Part shown: piece after piece, positions 15,477 to 23,878 of the stretch
Layout of the letters: the number at the start of each line of letters is the position of its first letter
Numbering within the stretch: the stretch's first letter is position 1
Virus record (IMG/VR): IMGVR_UViG_3300032278_000118
Coordinates: 1-23,878 of that record
Strand: one strand, 5' to 3'
DNA length: 23,878 bases
From: a virus
Notes under the pieces: model-generated
The model's input: only the letters and a program-made list of their open reading frames with translations
Told to the model about the DNA's origin: nothing
Databases searched by the model: none
Made by a program: the position numbers and the translations under genes

Positions 15477-16385
15477 TTACGCTCCAGGGCTACCGAATAC
15501 ACAACGGGGGTCAGACCACCCGAATGAGTATCTCTCGCGAGCCTTGTACCTAACATTACCGGTATCGAAATCAGCTTCCATCGAAGTTCTGATTGGCGAA
15601 CGATCAAACATTTTGAATCCGTTCGGACAATCAGTTTTGATGAACCAAGCATCAGTATCCGTTAGATAATGATTAACTGTATAGCCTTCAGGGACCATGC
15701 CCATATTGCGTATAGCGTTAATGTCATTATCAGCGGTACTTACTCTGCCTGGTGATTCCAATATTCTATCAGACACGAATTGTAGTTCTTTAGGGATAAT
15801 TAACTTAGTCCCTTGAAGAGCTACTTTTAATCCACGCTCATCAGTAAATGCTGCTATGTCAATCAATGCTTGTTCCAACGAAGTTTCGCTCAGGTCCGCA
15901 GATGTTGAAAGCTCATTACGCAAGTTAGCACCACCCACAGTTGGGTGGTCAGTTGCACAAAGTTCTTTCGTATCACCGCCTGGGTAACTTGAATTGAACG
16001 CACGATTTAACACAGAAGCACCTTTGATTTGCTTGGTATTCGCCATACTTCTTGCAAGCGCTCTTGTATATCTTGCCGATAATCTATCGTACAAGTTATC
16101 TTCGACCGCTTCTTCTGTAATACTGAATGCCAGCGCCACAGTTTCATGTGTGTAGCGTGATGTGAAAGCCTCTTGGGCTTGGTCAAACGCTACGCCTGCT
16201 CCTTCCGACTTAACCGGTGCGGTATCAAAGCCTGTAAGCATTACTTCTTCCTCGAAAGCACGATCACTTGACTCGGTTTCAAAAATTTCTTCTGATTCCT
16301 TATCATATCTATCGTACTCAAGGCCGAATAATGCGTTCAAGCCTGGAAGTAATTCTTTGACTAATTGACCTCTGGTAATTGCCAT
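15477..16385 (-). CDS. Major capsid protein (probable HK97 fold), 302 aa
   Basis: The sequence shows an acidic N-terminal region (DRYDKESEEIFETESSDRAF), a spine-helix-like part rich in Ala and Arg (LSARYTRALARSMANTKQIK), the CATDHPTVGGANLRN segment, and a C-terminal strand region with CPNGFKMFDRSPIRTSMEAD and SFGWSDPRCVFG. These are recognisable features of Mu gpT-type and related marine phage major head proteins. Length, position after the scaffold gene, and a strong AAGGAG site 9 bases before the ATG all fit a highly expressed coat protein. A terminator-like hairpin just after its stop would end the head transcript. No prohead protease gene was found in the window. Confidence 0.85.
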   Translation of the reverse strand: MAITRGQLVKELLPGLNALFGLEYDRYDKESEEIFETESSDRAFEEEVMLTGFDTAPVKSEGAGVAFDQAQEAFTSRYTHETVALAFSITEEAVEDNLYDRLSARYTRALARSMANTKQIKGASVLNRAFNSSYPGGDTKELCATDHPTVGGANLRNELSTSADLSETSLEQALIDIAAFTDERGLKVALQGTKLIIPKELQFVSDRILESPGRVSTADNDINAIRNMGMVPEGYTVNHYLTDTDAWFIKTDCPNGFKMFDRSPIRTSMEADFDTGNVRYKARERYSFGWSDPRCVFGSPGA

Positions 16386-16397
16386 TTATATTACTCC

Positions 16398-16979
16398 TTA
16401 TGTACCAGCAACTCCACCGCGCATGTAATGCTCATTAATTAAAACAATTAAATTCGCATTATCGGCAGTGAGATCACCGTTTACGTCATCTTGGACCACG
16501 CCTACAATCTTAAGCTGAAGTGCTAAAGTAGTGTCAATGGTAGTAGAGTCGAGTTCGCGAGTAGCAACACCAGTTGTTGTACTACCACCTATCCCATCAG
16601 TATCAGCATTTCTGCCTATACATGTTTGGGCCGAAGCACCGTCCGCCTGAACAACAAACAATTGGTTAGGATCGTCATAGATATAAGCCTCTATGGGTCC
16701 GCTTCCAAGTGCCGTTGTACTGGCTGGATAGTAATTCTTAAAGGTGGGAGTTCCGTCAGTAGCAACATAGTAGCAATGCGAAAACGCACCAACAATATTG
16801 GCAGAGCTCGCTGCCGCAGTGTTAATAAAACCAGCTGCGAATATAGTTATGTCACCTTGATAGATGCTTGTGCCATATCCAGCCGTGCTAATATTGTACT
16901 TGTTAACTATCTGAACAGAAGAACCGGCGCTGACTCCCTTATAGGGATTTAAGCCAAAAGCTTTGTCTACATTTGCCAT
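16398..16979 (-). CDS. Probable head decoration/capsid-associated protein, 193 aa
   Basis: The protein is small, beta-rich and Ala/Thr/Gly-rich, beginning MANVDKAFGLNPYKGVSAGS. It contains YGTSIYQGDITIFAAGF and VGAFSHCYYVATDGTPTF, then a run of short strands ending NLIVLINEHYMRGG. The opening (MANVDKAFGL.PYK) is typical of small capsid-neighbour proteins in marine podoviruses. It lies directly before the coat gene with only a 12-base gap, and has no signal peptide or membrane segment. A decoration or capsid-stabilising role is the best guess. It could instead be a minor coat protein. Confidence 0.7.
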   Translation of the reverse strand: MANVDKAFGLNPYKGVSAGSSVQIVNKYNISTAGYGTSIYQGDITIFAAGFINTAAASSANIVGAFSHCYYVATDGTPTFKNYYPASTTALGSGPIEAYIYDDPNQLFVVQADGASAQTCIGRNADTDGIGGSTTTGVATRELDSTTIDTTLALQLKIVGVVQDDVNGDLTADNANLIVLINEHYMRGGVAGT

Positions 16980-17008: not shown

Positions 17009-17509
17009 TCAAGAACCCTTATTCAGTGAAGAATTTTGGGTTCCACCAATTGATACGCGAGACTGTCTCTCAGGTCTACTGATAGACATTGAAGGATGAC
17101 TTCCATCTCTCATCATATCGTTATCGACAGCATCTATCTGATTCTGCGTCTTAGACGCAAAATGATCAGATCTCTCCTGTACGGTTTCGATAGGAATCCT
17201 ACATAGAATCAACCCACCAACTCCAATTACCCCTTCAAATTTACCTTCTTCGACTACTGGTGATTCAAAGTCCGGGTATTCATCTGCTCTCACAGGTACC
17301 CAGCCTTCTCGAAGTTTGGCCATGACGTTCTTACGATCGTCCTGTCCTCTTACTTCCATTCTCACCCATCGATGAACGTGTCCTTCGGGGGGGTTTGGTG
17401 CATCTAGTGCAGATGGTGGTGCCCATGGTTTTCTCGCTTGTTTTTTCTCGCGAGTTTGGGCTTCGCGTGGTTCACGATTCTCATCAGTGTTTTTATTTTT
17501 CGTTGTCAT
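17009..17509 (-). CDS. Conserved-looking head-module protein of unknown function, 166 aa
   Basis: The N-terminal 30 residues are highly charged (Lys, Arg, Glu). The core (about 27-115) begins KPWAPPSALDAPNPPEGHVH, continues with RWVRMEVRGQDDRKNV and AKLREGWVPVRADEYPDF, and ends in a small hydrophobic patch GVIGVGGLILCRIP. The C-terminal 50 residues are Ser/Arg-rich and look disordered. I recall similar proteins beside scaffold and capsid genes of marine phages but know no function. It starts at an ATG behind a GGAGC site. A structural or assembly role is inferred from its position only. Confidence 0.75.
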   Translation of the reverse strand: MTTKNKNTDENREPREAQTREKKQARKPWAPPSALDAPNPPEGHVHRWVRMEVRGQDDRKNVMAKLREGWVPVRADEYPDFESPVVEEGKFEGVIGVGGLILCRIPIETVQERSDHFASKTQNQIDAVDNDMMRDGSHPSMSISRPERQSRVSIGGTQNSSLNKGS

Positions 17510-17521
17510 TGTTGCTCCACG

Positions 17522-18484
17522 TTATTCAACATATTTCGCGTACTCTTCTAAAGGCACACCCAATTTTTTTGCTATCGTAACCTGTGAAGGTGTGAGTCTC
17601 ACAGTTTTGCGCCCAGACTTGGTACTGCGTTTAGCAGGAGCCACTGCTTGGGCGGGCCGACTCGTTGGGGTAGCTTCCTCAAACTTGTGAGGGAACTCCG
17701 TACGAATTCGTTTATTAACTTCATCATAATACTCATTACTGGTGGCGTCAAACCCTTCGTTGAGTAAATCCTGATGAATTACAAAAGAAGTCATGGTCAT
17801 TGCCCGGTCATTTCCGAACCAAGAATTCTCTTCTGCCCAATCTTGGGCTTTAGGATCCGGGTCTGGATATGTTGGTTGGGGCTGTGGCACAGTTTCTTGT
17901 GTAAATTGTTGTGGTGCCGTTACCTGTCCTTGTCGGACATTGCGCTCTTGATTCAGGGCCTGCACGCGTTGGGCTTCCACTGCAAGAGCAGCTATTTTTT
18001 GTTGTGCGTTTACTTGTGCGTCGGTATCTGCTTCTTCGTTAGCTTTCTTTAATACATTCTTTGCTGCTTCGGTTTCGGCTGTAATTCTATTGGCTTCAGA
18101 AATAATGTAGTTACCATCTAAATTCTGCTTTTGTTGTTGTAATTGTTGATTCTCGGTATGTACGTTCTTAGCATATTCAGTTGCTGCTTTTTCTCTGCGT
18201 TCAGATTCTCTAAGTTTACCGGTTAATTTATCAATACGTTTTTTTACATTCTTGCTATATTCTTCGTGTTCGTCAGTTTCGGCAACTACTTCTTCTTTCT
18301 CTACTATTTTTACTTCTGGTATGGCTTCCGCGCCTCCTTCGCCCCCTAATATGGGTTTGTCAGGCTGCTGTGGTTCTATCGGAAGTTCGGGGCTTTCGTC
18401 AATATCAACATCTACTGCGGGACCGGTATCATCTATAGGTACGGATTCTTCAGCTGCGTTGAGATTTAGTTTATGCTTTGGCAT
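17522..18484 (-). CDS. Capsid scaffolding/assembly protein, 320 aa
   Basis: The protein has the composition and shape of a scaffold. Residues 1-75 are acidic and disordered. About 75-185 form a long charged helix or coiled coil (KKRIDKLTGKLRESERREKA, then Gln/Glu/Ala-rich heptads). A Pro/Gln-rich linker spans 186-210. Residues 213-270 hold a segment with AQDWAEENSWFGNDRAMT. The basic C-terminal helix reads RLTPSQVTIAKKLGVPLEEY. In P22 and T7 the scaffold's C-terminal basic helix binds the coat protein and directs prohead formation. The position between portal/chaperonin and coat genes supports the call. No protease domain is visible, so scaffold exit without cleavage is possible but unproven. 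Confidence 0.82.
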   Translation of the reverse strand: MPKHKLNLNAAEESVPIDDTGPAVDVDIDESPELPIEPQQPDKPILGGEGGAEAIPEVKIVEKEEVVAETDEHEEYSKNVKKRIDKLTGKLRESERREKAATEYAKNVHTENQQLQQQKQNLDGNYIISEANRITAETEAAKNVLKKANEEADTDAQVNAQQKIAALAVEAQRVQALNQERNVRQGQVTAPQQFTQETVPQPQPTYPDPDPKAQDWAEENSWFGNDRAMTMTSFVIHQDLLNEGFDATSNEYYDEVNKRIRTEFPHKFEEATPTSRPAQAVAPAKRSTKSGRKTVRLTPSQVTIAKKLGVPLEEYAKYVE

Positions 18485-18499
18485 GGTTCTTCTCCATGG

Positions 18500-18979
18500 T
18501 TAAAATTGATGCAGAATTGCTTCTGGGTCAGGTACTGTAGCAATGATTTCATCATCGTTCAGTAACTTTATTTCTCCACCTTCGATGTGTATTCTAGACC
18601 CTGCGTATCTTCCAATCAATACCCAGTCCCCAGGTTTACACCACGGTCCGGCAGAAAATCTTTCTCCTTCGTAAGCTTGTGGGCCTACTTTGAGTACATA
18701 TCCAAGGATACTTCCGACTTGTTGCCGCTCCACCGTTTCACTGGTGAGCAGTATTCCTGCGTCGGTTTGTCCTTGGCCCATGTATGGTAAAATCATAATG
18801 CGCCAGCCTGTTGGTTCCGGCAATTGGTCCAACAGCTTCGAGTCCAATTTGTCGGGGTTTAAGGTACCGGCATCGCCTTTTTTCTTACCCCCTTCGTAAA
18901 CTTTTTCCAAAGCAGATTTTTTATCTTCCGCTTTTTTCCATTCCTTTTCCATGGCTAAAGTATTCTGATTAGTCATCAT
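18500..18979 (-). CDS. GroES-like co-chaperonin (Cpn10 fold) in the head module, 159 aa
   Basis: Residues 53-150 look like a Cpn10 domain. WRIMILPYMGQG forms the first strand. A mobile loop with AGILLTSETVERQQ (74-87) has GILL in the place of the GroEL-binding hydrophobic tripeptide of GroES. Then come GYVLKVGPQAY, CKPGDWVLIGRYAG and a C-terminal DDEIIATVPDPEAIL. Residues 1-52 are a Lys/Glu-rich extension absent from bacterial GroES. Co-chaperonins of this type (T4 gp31 is the classic case) cap host GroEL to fold large capsid proteins, and the gene lies just before scaffold and coat genes. Two ATGs are possible. The second (18976) is 7 bases from an AGGAG (18984-18988) and is the better start. 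No GroEL gene is visible in the window. Confidence 0.85.
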   Translation of the reverse strand: MMTNQNTLAMEKEWKKAEDKKSALEKVYEGGKKKGDAGTLNPDKLDSKLLDQLPEPTGWRIMILPYMGQGQTDAGILLTSETVERQQVGSILGYVLKVGPQAYEGERFSAGPWCKPGDWVLIGRYAGSRIHIEGGEIKLLNDDEIIATVPDPEAILHQF

Positions 18980-19166
18980 CTATCTCCTGGTTTTTTAATA
19001 TGGTCCTTATTTCTTCGCGCACATGGTTCAACGCTTCAATATGACCAGTCAAATTGCGATAGTGTTCCCAATCTTTGACCTCGCCATTGGTCATCATTTC
19101 TTGGATTTGCTGCTCTTTTTTATCGATGGCGCGCGTTACAGCTGTCGCGAATTGTATTATATCTAT
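18969..19166 (-). CDS. Small acidic/helical protein, start codon uncertain
   Basis: A coding-looking frame runs from just after the repeat-protein stop to TAA at 18969-18971. It reads IDIIQFATAVTRAIDKK, then EQQIQEMMTNGEVKDWEHYR, then NLTGHIEALNHVREEIRTIL and KNQEIDDD. It resembles the small helical proteins found between portal and scaffold genes in other phages. No ATG, GTG or TTG lies in frame before the double ATG at 19097/19094, which would leave 42 residues or fewer. The fuller form would need the ATA at 19166, which overlaps the upstream TAG as ATAG with a GGGGA tract before it. The stop codon overlaps the start of the chaperonin gene. The function is unknown. Confidence 0.6.
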   Translation of the reverse strand: MDIIQFATAVTRAIDKKEQQIQEMMTNGEVKDWEHYRNLTGHIEALNHVREEIRTILKNQEIDDD

Positions 19167-20401
19167 GTTGTCCCCGGTGCTTTATATGAATAAGTGGCGG
19201 GAACCGGTATGGTTGTAATGCCCCCCATTTCGGGAACACCGGCCGTTCCATACGGGCTCGACGCATATTGACCACTCTCATAAGGATTATAACCTATGGA
19301 GGGTCCGGTTAATGTGTATTGTCCGGCCATGGTTGCCGCTTGGTCGATGGCCGCTTGTCGAGCTGTGTCCTGTGCTGCTTGTTGTGCGTTCTGGTCGGCC
19401 AAGATACCAGCCCACCATTCGTTGAGATATGTTTCAAAATCAAAATCTTCTCCGGTTCCGGTAGTATCTCCGGCTCCTCCGGTTCCGGTAGTATCTCCGG
19501 CTCCTCCGGTTCCGGTAGTATCTCCGGCTCCTCCGGTTCCGGTAGTATCTCCGGCTCCAGGTCCTCCGGCTCCTCCGTTTTCTATAGACCCAGCTCCTGT
19601 TCCTACTCCTCCGGATATTTCCCCTGGCATAGTACCGACACCTCCCCCGGTTTCAGGTTCTCCCGGCAAACCGGCTCCGGCTCCTCCGGTTCCGGTAGTA
19701 TCTCCGGTTCCGGTAGTATCTCCGGTTCCGGTAGTATCTCCGGCTCCTCCGGTTCCAGGTCCTCCGGTTCCGGGTCCTCCGGTTCCGGGTCCTTCACTAG
19801 CGAGATCTACTCTATTCCATTGTCCTTGAGCAAAGGTCCAAGTCACATGATTTGCATCTATATACACTTGACCCACATAAGGATTAGCAGGAAATCCTCC
19901 TGCATCAACTGGGCCGGTTCCCGTTCCTGTAGTTCCTCCTCCTACTGCTGCTGCCACTGCATCAGCAATTATTTCATCTGCGGAACTAGGGTGGGAAGAT
20001 ACTCCTCCCGGTTCTGCTCTCCCTGCTCCTAGCTGTGGTGAACCACCACCAACTGCGGCGGCCACGGCTGCATTGGGGTCAGAACTATAGCCGGTTCCTG
20101 CTCCCGTTGATACGACAGGGCCAGTTATTGGTCCCTCATAATAAGGGGCTCCAGGCTCCCCGTATGTGCTTGCTGTTATTGTTGGATCTCTAAGATAATC
20201 ATAACCGCCTCCAAATTGTGGAAAATTCACGGAAGTCGTTGGAGGAGAGGTTGGAGGGCTTGGTGACACGACAGGGGGCGTAACTACAGGTGCTCCAGGC
20301 TCCCCGTATCGACGGCGCATGCCCTGGGATTCGTCCAGTCTATCTTTATAAGTCTGGTGTGCAATAGGCCTTAAATACGGAGATCCCTGAAAAAATAGCA
20401 T
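19163..20401 (-). CDS. Gly/Pro/Thr-rich repeat virion protein, 412 aa
   Basis: This is a low-complexity protein between portal and chaperonin genes, translationally coupled to the portal by TAATG. Residues 33-60 are Pro-rich, and YGEPGAP occurs twice (32-38 and 80-86). AAVAAAVGGG and DAVAAAVGGG form another internal duplication (111-120 and 148-156). Residues 174-199 hold a small beta-module (VGQVYIDANHVTWTF with QWNRVD) of a kind common in fibre proteins. Two blocks of perfect GTG-DTT repeats follow (203-240 and 282-317). The C-terminal 90 residues contain an acidic/aromatic helix (EDFDFETYLNEWWAGIL), an Ala/Gln-rich helix and a Tyr/Gly/Pro tail. The function is unknown. Its place suggests a head-associated or flexible surface protein. 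The family is not recognised. Confidence 0.75.
   Translation of the reverse strand: MLFFQGSPYLRPIAHQTYKDRLDESQGMRRRYGEPGAPVVTPPVVSPSPPTSPPTTSVNFPQFGGGYDYLRDPTITASTYGEPGAPYYEGPITGPVVSTGAGTGYSSDPNAAVAAAVGGGSPQLGAGRAEPGGVSSHPSSADEIIADAVAAAVGGGTTGTGTGPVDAGGFPANPYVGQVYIDANHVTWTFAQGQWNRVDLASEGPGTGGPGTGGPGTGGAGDTTGTGDTTGTGDTTGTGGAGAGLPGEPETGGGVGTMPGEISGGVGTGAGSIENGGAGGPGAGDTTGTGGAGDTTGTGGAGDTTGTGGAGDTTGTGEDFDFETYLNEWWAGILADQNAQQAAQDTARQAAIDQAATMAGQYTLTGPSIGYNPYESGQYASSPYGTAGVPEMGGITTIPVPATYSYKAPGTT
19451..19558 (-). repeat. In-frame tandem repeats, block 2 (four 27-base units)
   Basis: Residues 282-317 consist of four copies of the nine-residue unit AGDTTGTGG. At DNA level the 27-base units look essentially identical, including third codon positions. 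Such identity suggests recent expansion, with copy number likely to vary between related phages. The unit shares the GDTTGT core with block 1. Confidence 0.88.
19682..19795 (-). repeat. In-frame tandem repeats, block 1 of the repeat protein
   Basis: Residues 203-240 of the 412-aa protein are encoded by short tandem units. Three GPGTG-G units (15 bases) are followed by three GDTTGT units (18 bases). The 18-base units are almost identical at DNA level (CCGGTTCCGGTAGTATCT on the plus strand), which points to recent slippage or unequal recombination. Confidence 0.85.
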
Positions 20402-22815
20402 TAGTCCTTACTCCCGGATTTCTTTTCCTGTTTAATACGTTGTCTTTCCACGTTTGCCTTCAATGCCGCAATATCTTCCTGCGATTTTATCTTTTCCTCT
20501 TCGGACTGATCCTTCTGTCTAAGCTTGGCTTTGTCCAGTTTAATTTTCTTCTCGGCAATTATTTTATCATCTTCATTTTCTTTTGCACGTATAGCGAGTT
20601 CTTGTTGCTTCAATGCGACCACGCCATCGTCCGGCGGTGACATCACATTTTCAAGTCTTGGCATGATTTGTTCAATAAGTTGCAATTCTATTTTGGCCTT
20701 CAACGCTTCCTTTTCCGGATTAGGTGGTGGCGGTGGTTGTGCCATGCCCCCTTGTTGCATCTGCGGAGGCATTTGTTGTGGTGGCTCCGGCATTTGTTGA
20801 TCCACCAGGTTTTGTGCTTCGAGCGAAACGTGCTGGAAGATATGCGATACCAACATTGGCATCGCCGCCGGATTGGCCATGGCAATGCCCGTTTCCAAAA
20901 AGGATAAATGCACCTCAATATGTACCATGTGTAACTGCTCTGGAAAAGCAATCAGAGGTGCACCCATCAAGGCCGCGCCATCCTCTTGGGCGGGGTCCAC
21001 CGGAACGGGAGGTGGTGGATCGGGAACAAATAAGGCGTCGATGTTTTCAGAACCAAGGGCCTGATACATTCTGCGATAGGATTCTTTAATGTTATGTATT
21101 TCCGGATTGCTTTGTACTAATTGCAATTCCTGTTGCGCTAAAGTAATTCGCTGACTCATGGAAAAGAAGTTTGGATCACTGACGGGAACGACATCCACGC
21201 GATCGTCGAAGTCCGATTGCTTAATGGCCTGGTCGCCGCCGACCACTTGATAGGGGTATTGAGGAGGAAGGAATTCAGAGAATAACCTAGCCAGTATTCT
21301 AAATTCTGTTTTCTGTGCGTAATGTAATCTCTTGTGCACGGCCGACATGACTCTGGTCCCTTGTTCCAGTAGCGCCATGGTCGTACCCACCGGCATTTCC
21401 TGATTGCCTTCACCTATTTGTAAATTCGTAATGGAAGCAAATCTTTGTCCGGCCTCTACACAAAAACCGAGTAATTGCATGAGTGTCTGTGACGGCTCCT
21501 TGTAAGGCAATGGCACCAGGGAATCCCTGAGTGCTCCGCCCGGTGCGTCCACGTCCCGGAACTCGCCCGGCTCCAGCGGTGTTTCATCGTCACGAATTCT
21601 GAGTCCCCTGGCCTTGAACCCAGCGGGGAGATTAGCCAGGGTTCCGGCATCAATGAGCTGTCTAAGAGCACCGGTCGCCGTCCGTGACAAACCGCCGATC
21701 ATGTGAATTAGCCCAAAGCCGTAAAAACCAAGGCCAGGGAGAAACTTATAGTGTACGAAATATTGTATTTTTCTTTTGAGTGGATCGTCCGGTCGATAAT
21801 TCCTACGGATGGATAAGACCTGTCCGGAAGTACGATCGACAGTAATAATGAAGGGAAGGTGAAAACCGTCCGGATCTTCAAATCCCGGTACATCGGTAGA
21901 GACATGAAATTCCAGTAATTCATAAAGCATTTCATTGGCCCCAGGACGAATGCCTTCGAGTTCATCTTCCTTGTCCTTGGGGTCATTAGCAATATTGGTT
22001 TCCGCAGGCTGTAGCGGAATGTCCCGATAAAAGCCCGCGAGTTGTTGAGTGCGAACTTCGTTATATGTCATCTTGACAATATGTGTTATACGTTCACAAG
22101 TGGCCAAATCGCTGGCGGTATAAGGTACCACCAAATCTTCCACCGGGACAAACGTACTGACGGCGCGTTGTTTGCTCGCGTCATAATAAACTTTCTTGAA
22201 TGCGGTACCCGCCAACGGCAAATAGAACAGTAATTGGTCCATTTCCGGGGTGTATTCTTCCATTACAGTAGTTATCTGATAATTCATAAATTCCTGGACT
22301 CTTCTCGCCTGGTCCTCCGTTTCCGGGGTTTCGTCCCCCATAACACGGGTTTTGACCGGTCCTTTCGGGGGTAATAGCTCTTTAAAGGCTTGTGCCTGGA
22401 ACTGCGTTATGGACTCTGCCAACAGTGGATGGGTAACTCCGGAGGCACCGGGAAAAGGGCGGTCCCTTTCCTCGTATTTAAAGCCCAACAGTTCCAGACC
22501 TTTAACATAAGCTTCCTCCCATTCGGAACGACTGCTGCGATCTTCTTCAAACTCCCCGATTAAATCATTGGCTATTCTGCCCAGGTCCGTGTCGTCCAGA
22601 TGTTCCGCCAGGTTGGCGTCAAAGGGTACCTCTTCCATGGGATCTTCGTCCGGAAAATAATTGACCTGTGCCTCACCGGCATCGGATAGCTCCACGGAAA
22701 CCTCACCGTTGGGGGCCAAAGGCTCTTCTATTTCAACTTCCGTGCCATCCTCGACCTCCAGATCAATGAGATCGGAAAGTCTCTCGATATTAGTGGGTAC
22801 TTTATTCTCGGCCAT
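20401..22815 (-). CDS. Phage portal protein (P22-like size class), 804 aa
   Basis: The protein would form the dodecameric ring at one capsid vertex, through which the terminase pumps DNA and to which the tail attaches. Its size is close to the P22 portal (about 725 aa) and far larger than HK97-type portals. Residues 1-75 are very acidic. Residues about 120-155 hold the conserved-looking FPGASGVTHPLLAE and KELLPPKGPVKTRV segments. A long alpha/beta body follows, then a Pro/Met/Gln-rich linker near 700-725 and a charged coiled-coil tail (about 730-804, Lys/Glu/Gln rich) that could form a barrel. It sits directly after the terminase, and its stop overlaps the next ATG by one base (TAATG). The assignment rests on recognisable portal motifs, length and position. 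Confidence 0.9.
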   Translation of the reverse strand: MAENKVPTNIERLSDLIDLEVEDGTEVEIEEPLAPNGEVSVELSDAGEAQVNYFPDEDPMEEVPFDANLAEHLDDTDLGRIANDLIGEFEEDRSSRSEWEEAYVKGLELLGFKYEERDRPFPGASGVTHPLLAESITQFQAQAFKELLPPKGPVKTRVMGDETPETEDQARRVQEFMNYQITTVMEEYTPEMDQLLFYLPLAGTAFKKVYYDASKQRAVSTFVPVEDLVVPYTASDLATCERITHIVKMTYNEVRTQQLAGFYRDIPLQPAETNIANDPKDKEDELEGIRPGANEMLYELLEFHVSTDVPGFEDPDGFHLPFIITVDRTSGQVLSIRRNYRPDDPLKRKIQYFVHYKFLPGLGFYGFGLIHMIGGLSRTATGALRQLIDAGTLANLPAGFKARGLRIRDDETPLEPGEFRDVDAPGGALRDSLVPLPYKEPSQTLMQLLGFCVEAGQRFASITNLQIGEGNQEMPVGTTMALLEQGTRVMSAVHKRLHYAQKTEFRILARLFSEFLPPQYPYQVVGGDQAIKQSDFDDRVDVVPVSDPNFFSMSQRITLAQQELQLVQSNPEIHNIKESYRRMYQALGSENIDALFVPDPPPPVPVDPAQEDGAALMGAPLIAFPEQLHMVHIEVHLSFLETGIAMANPAAMPMLVSHIFQHVSLEAQNLVDQQMPEPPQQMPPQMQQGGMAQPPPPPNPEKEALKAKIELQLIEQIMPRLENVMSPPDDGVVALKQQELAIRAKENEDDKIIAEKKIKLDKAKLRQKDQSEEEKIKSQEDIAALKANVERQRIKQEKKSGSKD

Positions 22816-23132: not shown

Positions 23133-23878
23133 CTAGTAATACTCTTTTAACCTGCGCGGATAGTTATCCTGCATATTGTCGTCAGATTCTAAACCAATAA
23201 AGCCACCCTGTCGATAACGCATTAATGCCTGCGTGGTGGAATCCACCAGGTCATCGTAGTCGCCGAATGGAAAAGCCGCGCATTCCTCGACCAGTTCCTC
23301 CGCCCAACGCGTTTCCGGGACGTATACCATGCCCGATTCCAATAGCGGCGCCACCGCATTTACCCGGGCAATCTTGTCGTGGCCCTTACCCGGTGAATAG
23401 TTCACCACCGGTATCCCCGCCTGGCGCAGTTCGTCCGTGAGTGGCAGGCCCGATGCCTTGGCCTCGATGATGATGGTGTCCGGGTCCCAATAAGTGTATT
23501 GTTCATAAGCGACTTTTTTCAATTTGGGAAAATCCCAGCGCCCTTTTTTAACATCTAATAATAACAGCGCCGGTCGCCCAGAGCCCTCCTCCGGATAAAA
23601 TACGCACCAGGTAGTGATTGCCGAATAGTCGGAGGTTTCCTTTTTGGTGTAAGCGGTGTCGTAGGATTGAATGACATATTGCATTTGCGGTACCTCCTCC
23701 TCGTCCCAGGTCTGCCACCATTCCCTTTTCAGTATCGCGCCTTCCTCCGAGGTCGGGTTTTGCATCCATTGCGCTTCCCATTTGCTCACCGGCAGCGAGG
23801 CCTTGACCCCTTCCAATTCCGGCAGCGTCCAATACTCCGGCCACAGGGCCTTGCCACTCTCCGGGAAAATAGCCGGGA
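23133..23878 (-). CDS. terL: Phage terminase large subunit, C-terminal nuclease part (5' end outside window)
   Basis: About 247 residues are visible. The reading frame stays open to the right edge, so the ATPase half lies outside the window. The TTG at 23816 is an internal leucine, because upstream codons continue a typical terminase linker (PAIFPESGKALWPEYWTL, then PVSKWEAQWMQNPTSEEG). The RNase H-like nuclease fold shows its expected acidic residues: an Asp in QSYDTAY, a Glu in IIIEAKASG and an Asp in the DYDDLVDSTTQAL motif near the C-terminus. In this family the enzyme cuts concatemeric DNA and pumps it through the portal into the prohead. It stands upstream of the portal gene, the normal phage order. 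The identification is strong. The packaging type (pac or cos) cannot be judged without the N-terminus and the small subunit. Confidence 0.95.
   Translation of the reverse strand, partial: PAIFPESGKALWPEYWTLPELEGVKASLPVSKWEAQWMQNPTSEEGAILKREWWQTWDEEEVPQMQYVIQSYDTAYTKKETSDYSAITTWCVFYPEEGSGRPALLLLDVKKGRWDFPKLKKVAYEQYTYWDPDTIIIEAKASGLPLTDELRQAGIPVVNYSPGKGHDKIARVNAVAPLLESGMVYVPETRWAEELVEECAAFPFGDYDDLVDSTTQALMRYRQGGFIGLESDDNMQDNYPRRLKEYY

Follow-up and report, generated by a model that had tools for sequence, protein, structure and literature searches.

A GroES co-chaperonin gene tied to one phage coat lineage encodes a branch-specific N-terminal tail

The window analysed here, the whole stretch of 23,878 nucleotides, is an incomplete IMG/VR virus record of 23.9 kb. 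On its minus strand a gene for a GroES co-chaperonin is followed in order by genes for a scaffold-like protein, a 166-amino-acid protein, a 193-amino-acid protein and the major coat protein. The features of this region, listed in the direction of the minus strand, are as follows.

23133-23876, minus strand: terminase large subunit, its 5′ end beyond the window edge (Terminase_6C, phrog_38)
20401-22815, minus strand: portal protein, 804 amino acids (phrog_1216)
18969-19097, minus strand: small open reading frame of 42 amino acids, overlapping the GroES start from upstream and kept in relatives
18500-18979, minus strand: viral Cpn10/GroES gene, 159 amino acids, ATG start (Pfam, PHROG, PDB phmmer, AlphaFold2 and Foldseek)
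18824-18979, minus strand: N-terminal extension of GroES, about 52 residues, with the motifs ALEKVY (hxx[AVK]Y type) and NPDKL (absent from host GroES; dN/dS; motifs)
18533-18823, minus strand: Cpn10 core with the AGILL mobile loop and a roof-loop segment as long as that of the host (Pfam, AlphaFold2, Foldseek and host alignment)
18500-18532, minus strand: C-terminal extension PDPEAILHQF and stop codon (conserved in relatives, absent from host GroES)
18509-18526, minus strand: nucleotide-conserved element CCAGAAGCAATTCTGCAT over the codons for PEAILH (synonymous conservation; possible hairpin CAGAA-GCAA-UUCUG)
18482-18499, minus strand: hairpin CCATGGAGAAGAACCATG at the scaffold start, its loop holding the Shine-Dalgarno sequence and its stem the AUG (in 52 of 94 unique start regions)
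17522-18484, minus strand: scaffold-like protein, 320 amino acids (position ahead of the coat gene; phrog_28737, unknown function)
17009-17509, minus strand: conserved block gene, 166 amino acids (phrog_36003, unknown function)
16398-16979, minus strand: conserved block gene, 193 amino acids (phrog_37556, unknown function)
15477-16385, minus strand: major coat protein, 302 amino acids, 33.4 kDa (Phage_capsid_4, phrog_371)

A sequence-only reading of this DNA had placed a GroES gene directly before scaffold and coat genes. GroES does lie immediately ahead of the scaffold-like gene (18484-17522); the coat gene is the third gene after that one. The model of the scaffold-like protein contains an 80-residue helix and a helical C-terminus, and a fold search with it gave no named scaffold, its matches at E ≤ 0.001 all being uncharacterised phage proteins. 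In 109 of 116 loci a small open reading frame precedes groES; 44 or more of these frames are sequence-related to the 42-amino-acid frame of the window, for which a PHROG search gave no match. Between the portal gene and groES, a gene at 19163-20401 (minus strand) encodes a Gly/Thr-rich protein of 412 amino acids without a match in Pfam or PHROG and contains tandem repeats, exact ones of 27 bp and near-exact ones of 18 bp, built of GDTTGTGGA units. A second set of tandem repeats, imperfect and 36 bp long with DLPEGYTATYGD units, lies at 2343-2440, near the N-terminus of a 283-amino-acid protein encoded at 1673-2524 on the minus strand.

The open reading frame at 18500-18979 is a genuine member of the Cpn10/GroES family. 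Pfam Cpn10 matches residues 56-148 (E = 4.5e-8; 33.4 bits, above the cut-off of 21.1), PHROG places the protein in phrog_3188, ‘co-chaperonin GroES’ (E = 5e-17), and a phmmer search of PDB sequences retrieves chains of plastid Cpn20 and of bacterial GroES (E = 2e-6 to 5e-6, with GroES at about 4e-6). An AlphaFold2 model built with 83 viral relatives is confident in the core, with block means mostly of 71-93, and of low confidence for residues 1-36, rising nearer the core. Its strands form the Cpn10 β-barrel, and Foldseek matches it to GroES/Hsp10 (E = 3.9e-7, probability 1.00), so that the fold expected from the letters alone was recovered by prediction. The mobile loop that had been read from the sequence also holds up: AGILL (residues 74-78) supplies the mobile-loop hydrophobic residues, aligns with GGIII of the host and GGIVL of E. 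coli, and has its hydrophobic positions kept in all viral sequences aligned with host proteins. In the same alignment four extra residues follow the mobile loop in the viral proteins, whose roof-loop segment equals that of host GroES in length.

Neither the window nor any of 13 related viral records encodes a detectable Cpn60/GroEL, which extends the earlier remark that no GroEL gene is visible here; all 14 of these records encode Cpn10, and among them are a contig of 59 kb and 12 records of phage genomes. Among six single-cell genomes with such viral contigs, four contain host GroEL and host GroES, and neither was detected in the other two, both of which are incomplete genomes. In the three Pelagibacteraceae with both, the host groES frame has 99-102 codons and adjoins groEL, and the viral copies have 145-162 codons. 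Host Pelagibacteraceae GroES, from a groESL operon, shares the Cpn10 core, mobile loop and roof-loop segment with the viral protein but has neither its N-terminal tail nor its C-terminal extension. The retained mobile loop and fold, together with the absence of a phage GroEL, support a role of the viral protein as a lid for the GroEL of the host.

The occurrence of co-chaperonin GroES in this group of phages is already known, as it is among the 13 core genes of HTVC023P-type pelagiphages (PMC9599517), and the window protein is another member. The coat of the window is 78% identical to that of DSL-LC04, 73% to 023Pt_psg01, 70% to HTVC023P and 67% to HTVC027P, and its terminase fragment (TerL) is 58-64% identical to those of the same four phages. 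Judged by these homologous terminase and coat sequences together with GroES, the window carries a head module of HTVC023P type. Clues to the host diverge: relatives infect SAR11, and the closest coat comes from the freshwater gammaproteobacterial phage DSL-LC04. The GroES proteins of HTVC027P (gp55), HTVC023P (gp36), 023Pt_psg01 and DSL-LC04 are homologous to that of the window over most of their length and share its gene order; identity is 42-49% with the tail included in three of them and 45% over residues 48-159 for HTVC023P, and the tails diverge outside short motifs. The best viral structural match, A0A221S4I5 (BFVD, an environmental sequence deposited as an uncultured virus co-chaperonin GroES of 155 amino acids), is 46% identical over an alignment of 162 columns that runs through the tail, so tailed viral GroES proteins have been deposited already. 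Our analysis adds a tight tie of the gene to one coat lineage, a branch-specific tail bearing conserved motifs, and a hairpin at the scaffold start.

The order from GroES to coat is identical in annotated phages of Pelagibacter, Roseobacter, Planktothrix and Caulobacter, in Manatee Spring phages and in Alcaligenes phage QDWS535. Starting from GroES, we found the coat gene downstream on the same strand in all 116 viral loci with room to test, and downstream in 27 of 27 testable contigs from genome collections. Starting from the coat, we found Cpn10 upstream at a distance of 1.98-2.22 kb in each of the 43 testable relatives; in six loci of a distant coat clade Cpn10 is not adjacent to the coat gene. 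Among 21 phage records whose coat is related, at least 20 encode Cpn10, which covers every record tested; the remaining one, MW202604, shares its coat match with MW202601. Several of the counted records are close relatives, which makes the effective numbers smaller. GroES lies within the block in 18 of the 21 (coat identity of 38% or more), and Cpn10 is encoded away from the coat gene in two distant records (coat identity 24-27%). An identical search found Cpn10 in none of eight control phages that have a related terminase and lack this coat, and E. coli GroES matches 89 of 50,697 records. Distances between GroES cores correlate with distances between coats (rho = 0.74; at most 0.19 in shuffles).

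Two apparent exceptions and one apparent host origin were set aside. From coat-side annotation vir526 (L175, BK063670.1) and ct7ZZ929 (L176, MW202601.1) seemed to be coat relatives without GroES, yet each has a Cpn10 gene at another place. In 41 contigs of bacterial or archaeal genomes the GroES relatives had the appearance of host genes, and every one of these contigs bears portal, scaffold or coat genes of the viral block. Of the distant coat relatives L175 and L176, with Cpn10 off the coat gene, one is assigned a Methanomicrobiales host.

The sequence-only reading had pointed to T4 gp31 as a precedent. That co-chaperonin has no roof loops and serves a coat protein of about 56 kDa that is slightly too big for the normal cage (PMC6318259, a review). 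The viral GroES resembles gp31 in being a phage-encoded lid without a phage GroEL and in its Cpn10 fold, although the Foldseek match is weak (E = 2.8e-3) and gp31 is absent among the PDB sequence matches up to E = 1. In the features that set gp31 apart the parallel fails, as the coat of the window is a protein of 33 kDa and the roof-loop segment is present at host length. With a coat of this size the cage-size argument made for T4 does not carry over, and a 33 kDa coat should fit the normal cage. Other possible reasons for a special lid are that it may be supplied late in infection or that its surface may suit the coat.

Taking these results together, we think it probable that the viral GroES is a lid for host GroEL that serves folding of the coat protein. 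By analogy with the family, seven copies would form the lid, and the AGILL mobile loop would cap the host's GroEL, because the phage brings none of its own. Its main client is most likely the coat of the phage itself, which would be made abundantly from the same gene block; this choice of client follows from the linkage of the two genes and from the correlation between their distances. The linkage could also reflect inheritance of the head module as a unit, with no client relation behind it.

A less probable reading, to which we still give appreciable weight, is a general take-over of the host chaperonin, in which the viral lid replaces or outcompetes host GroES for many phage proteins, such as polymerase, portal and tail, and its place before the coat gene is a matter of timing and operon position. 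The location of Cpn10 outside the head block in the two most distant coat clades fits such a role, as does a coat small enough for the ordinary cage. It accounts poorly for a nearly fixed spacing of 2.0-2.2 kb to the coat gene in phages of many hosts, and for the absence of Cpn10 from controls that share the terminase family and not the coat.

We regard it as unlikely that the Cpn10 fold has been reused for a head-assembly or structural factor that is no longer a GroEL lid and whose tail and C-terminal extension bind scaffold or coat. The strict place beside scaffold and coat genes, the extension of both termini with conserved motifs, and a core only 25-36% identical to the Cpn10 proteins that other phages with related coats encode are all compatible with such reuse, which is opposed by retention of the hydrophobic mobile loop, a feature needed only for GroEL binding.

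The C-terminal extension, which the sequence-only reading had overlooked, contains a conserved PE..H motif that host GroES lacks, with P152 and H157 at least 90% conserved across 83 relatives. Across 57 unique relatives the codons for PEAILH are almost devoid of synonymous change and form the lowest nine-codon window of six head genes. In seven deeper relatives, 39 of 41 codons of the element are identical, compared with 276 of 629 elsewhere. This scarcity of synonymous change suggests a putative overlapping RNA or DNA signal at the end of groES. A CAGAA-GCAA-UUCUG hairpin is one possible reading of the element; the folding z-score around it is only -1.5, and an Rfam search with it gave no match. 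We rejected a repeated promoter, since the window contains one perfect copy of the element and one with three mismatches and a promoter scan stayed close to chance level. Separately, the end of the scaffold gene (KLGVPLEEY; 17522-17564, minus strand) has the second-lowest synonymous diversity among the head genes examined.

An inverted repeat, CATGG..CCATG, spans the scaffold start. A perfect 5-bp hairpin is present at 52 of 94 unique scaffold starts, compared with 0.98, and at most 5, in shuffles, and is found mostly in marine branches. Its stem occurs as CATGG (27), CATAG (17), CATGA (4), CATGT (3) and CATAT (1), with paired changes at two positions (CATGG/CCATG, CATAG/CTATG and CATGA/TCATG). 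The same hairpin is rare or absent at the other starts of the block: 0 of 71 for the 166-amino-acid gene, 0 of 83 for the 193-amino-acid gene, 1 of 76 for the coat and 1 of 95 for GroES. On sequence evidence, covariation of this kind points to a candidate element for control of scaffold translation.

The N-terminal tail had been described as a charged extension of some 50 residues that bacterial GroES lacks. Its length of about 52 residues and its absence from the host protein stand: in the alignment, the GroES proteins from host single cells (three Pelagibacteraceae and one Flavobacterium) begin at the core itself, as does that of E. coli, which makes the tail a true addition. Charge does not stand as its conserved feature, because the window tail is near neutral (11 K against 10 D+E) and net charge among relatives spans -9 to +4. 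Across 54 distinct close relatives dN/dS is 0.097 in the tail, indicating purifying selection on it, and 0.072 in the core. A hydrophobic-x-x-[AVK]-[YF] motif, mostly 23-32 residues ahead of the core, occurs in 53 of 66 non-redundant tails (6.6 expected from shuffles), and an LDPEKL-type motif in 32 of the 66 (1.9 expected). It is highly improbable that the tail arises from a wrongly assigned start codon or from neutral read-through, with translation beginning near the core, and this reading was dismissed: automated choice of starts is fallible, and two members of the group with coats at least 60% identical (L145 and L117) initially seemed tailless through miscalled starts and are both tailed, but such an artefact is at odds with the Shine-Dalgarno-like CAGGAG immediately 5′ of the distal ATG, with the tail dN/dS and with motif counts far above shuffled expectation.

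Tails are about 35-72 residues long in phages whose coat is at least 60% identical to that of the window. At coat identities of 38-59%, with gene order unchanged, they measure 1-29 residues. Short tails despite an identical gene order indicate that the tail is a feature of one branch and not a requirement of the coat lineage. The suggestion that coat folding depends on the tail thus finds no general support; a lineage-specific role in coat folding is possible. Within our preferred reading, a lid for host GroEL that serves the coat, the tail probably acts as a flexible arm, restricted to the HTVC023P-type branch, that bears two short motifs for binding and would tune or localise the activity of the lid; this is the weakest step of the proposed mechanism. 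More speculatively, and with a good deal of doubt, the arm motifs (hxxAY and LDPEKL) of the HTVC023P-type branch might draw in coat or scaffold, or keep the lid where capsids are assembled, seven arms per ring coupling the folding chamber to capsid assembly, with the following scaffold gene under separate translation control by the hairpin.

Confinement of the tail to one branch amounts to a natural experiment on what an arm can do on a GroES lid. More broadly, a lid gene tied to one coat lineage in phages whose hosts range from SAR11 to cyanobacteria and Caulobacter suggests that reliance on the chaperonin is a property of the coat fold. A 33 kDa coat, which should do without a bigger cage, offers a way to test this idea.
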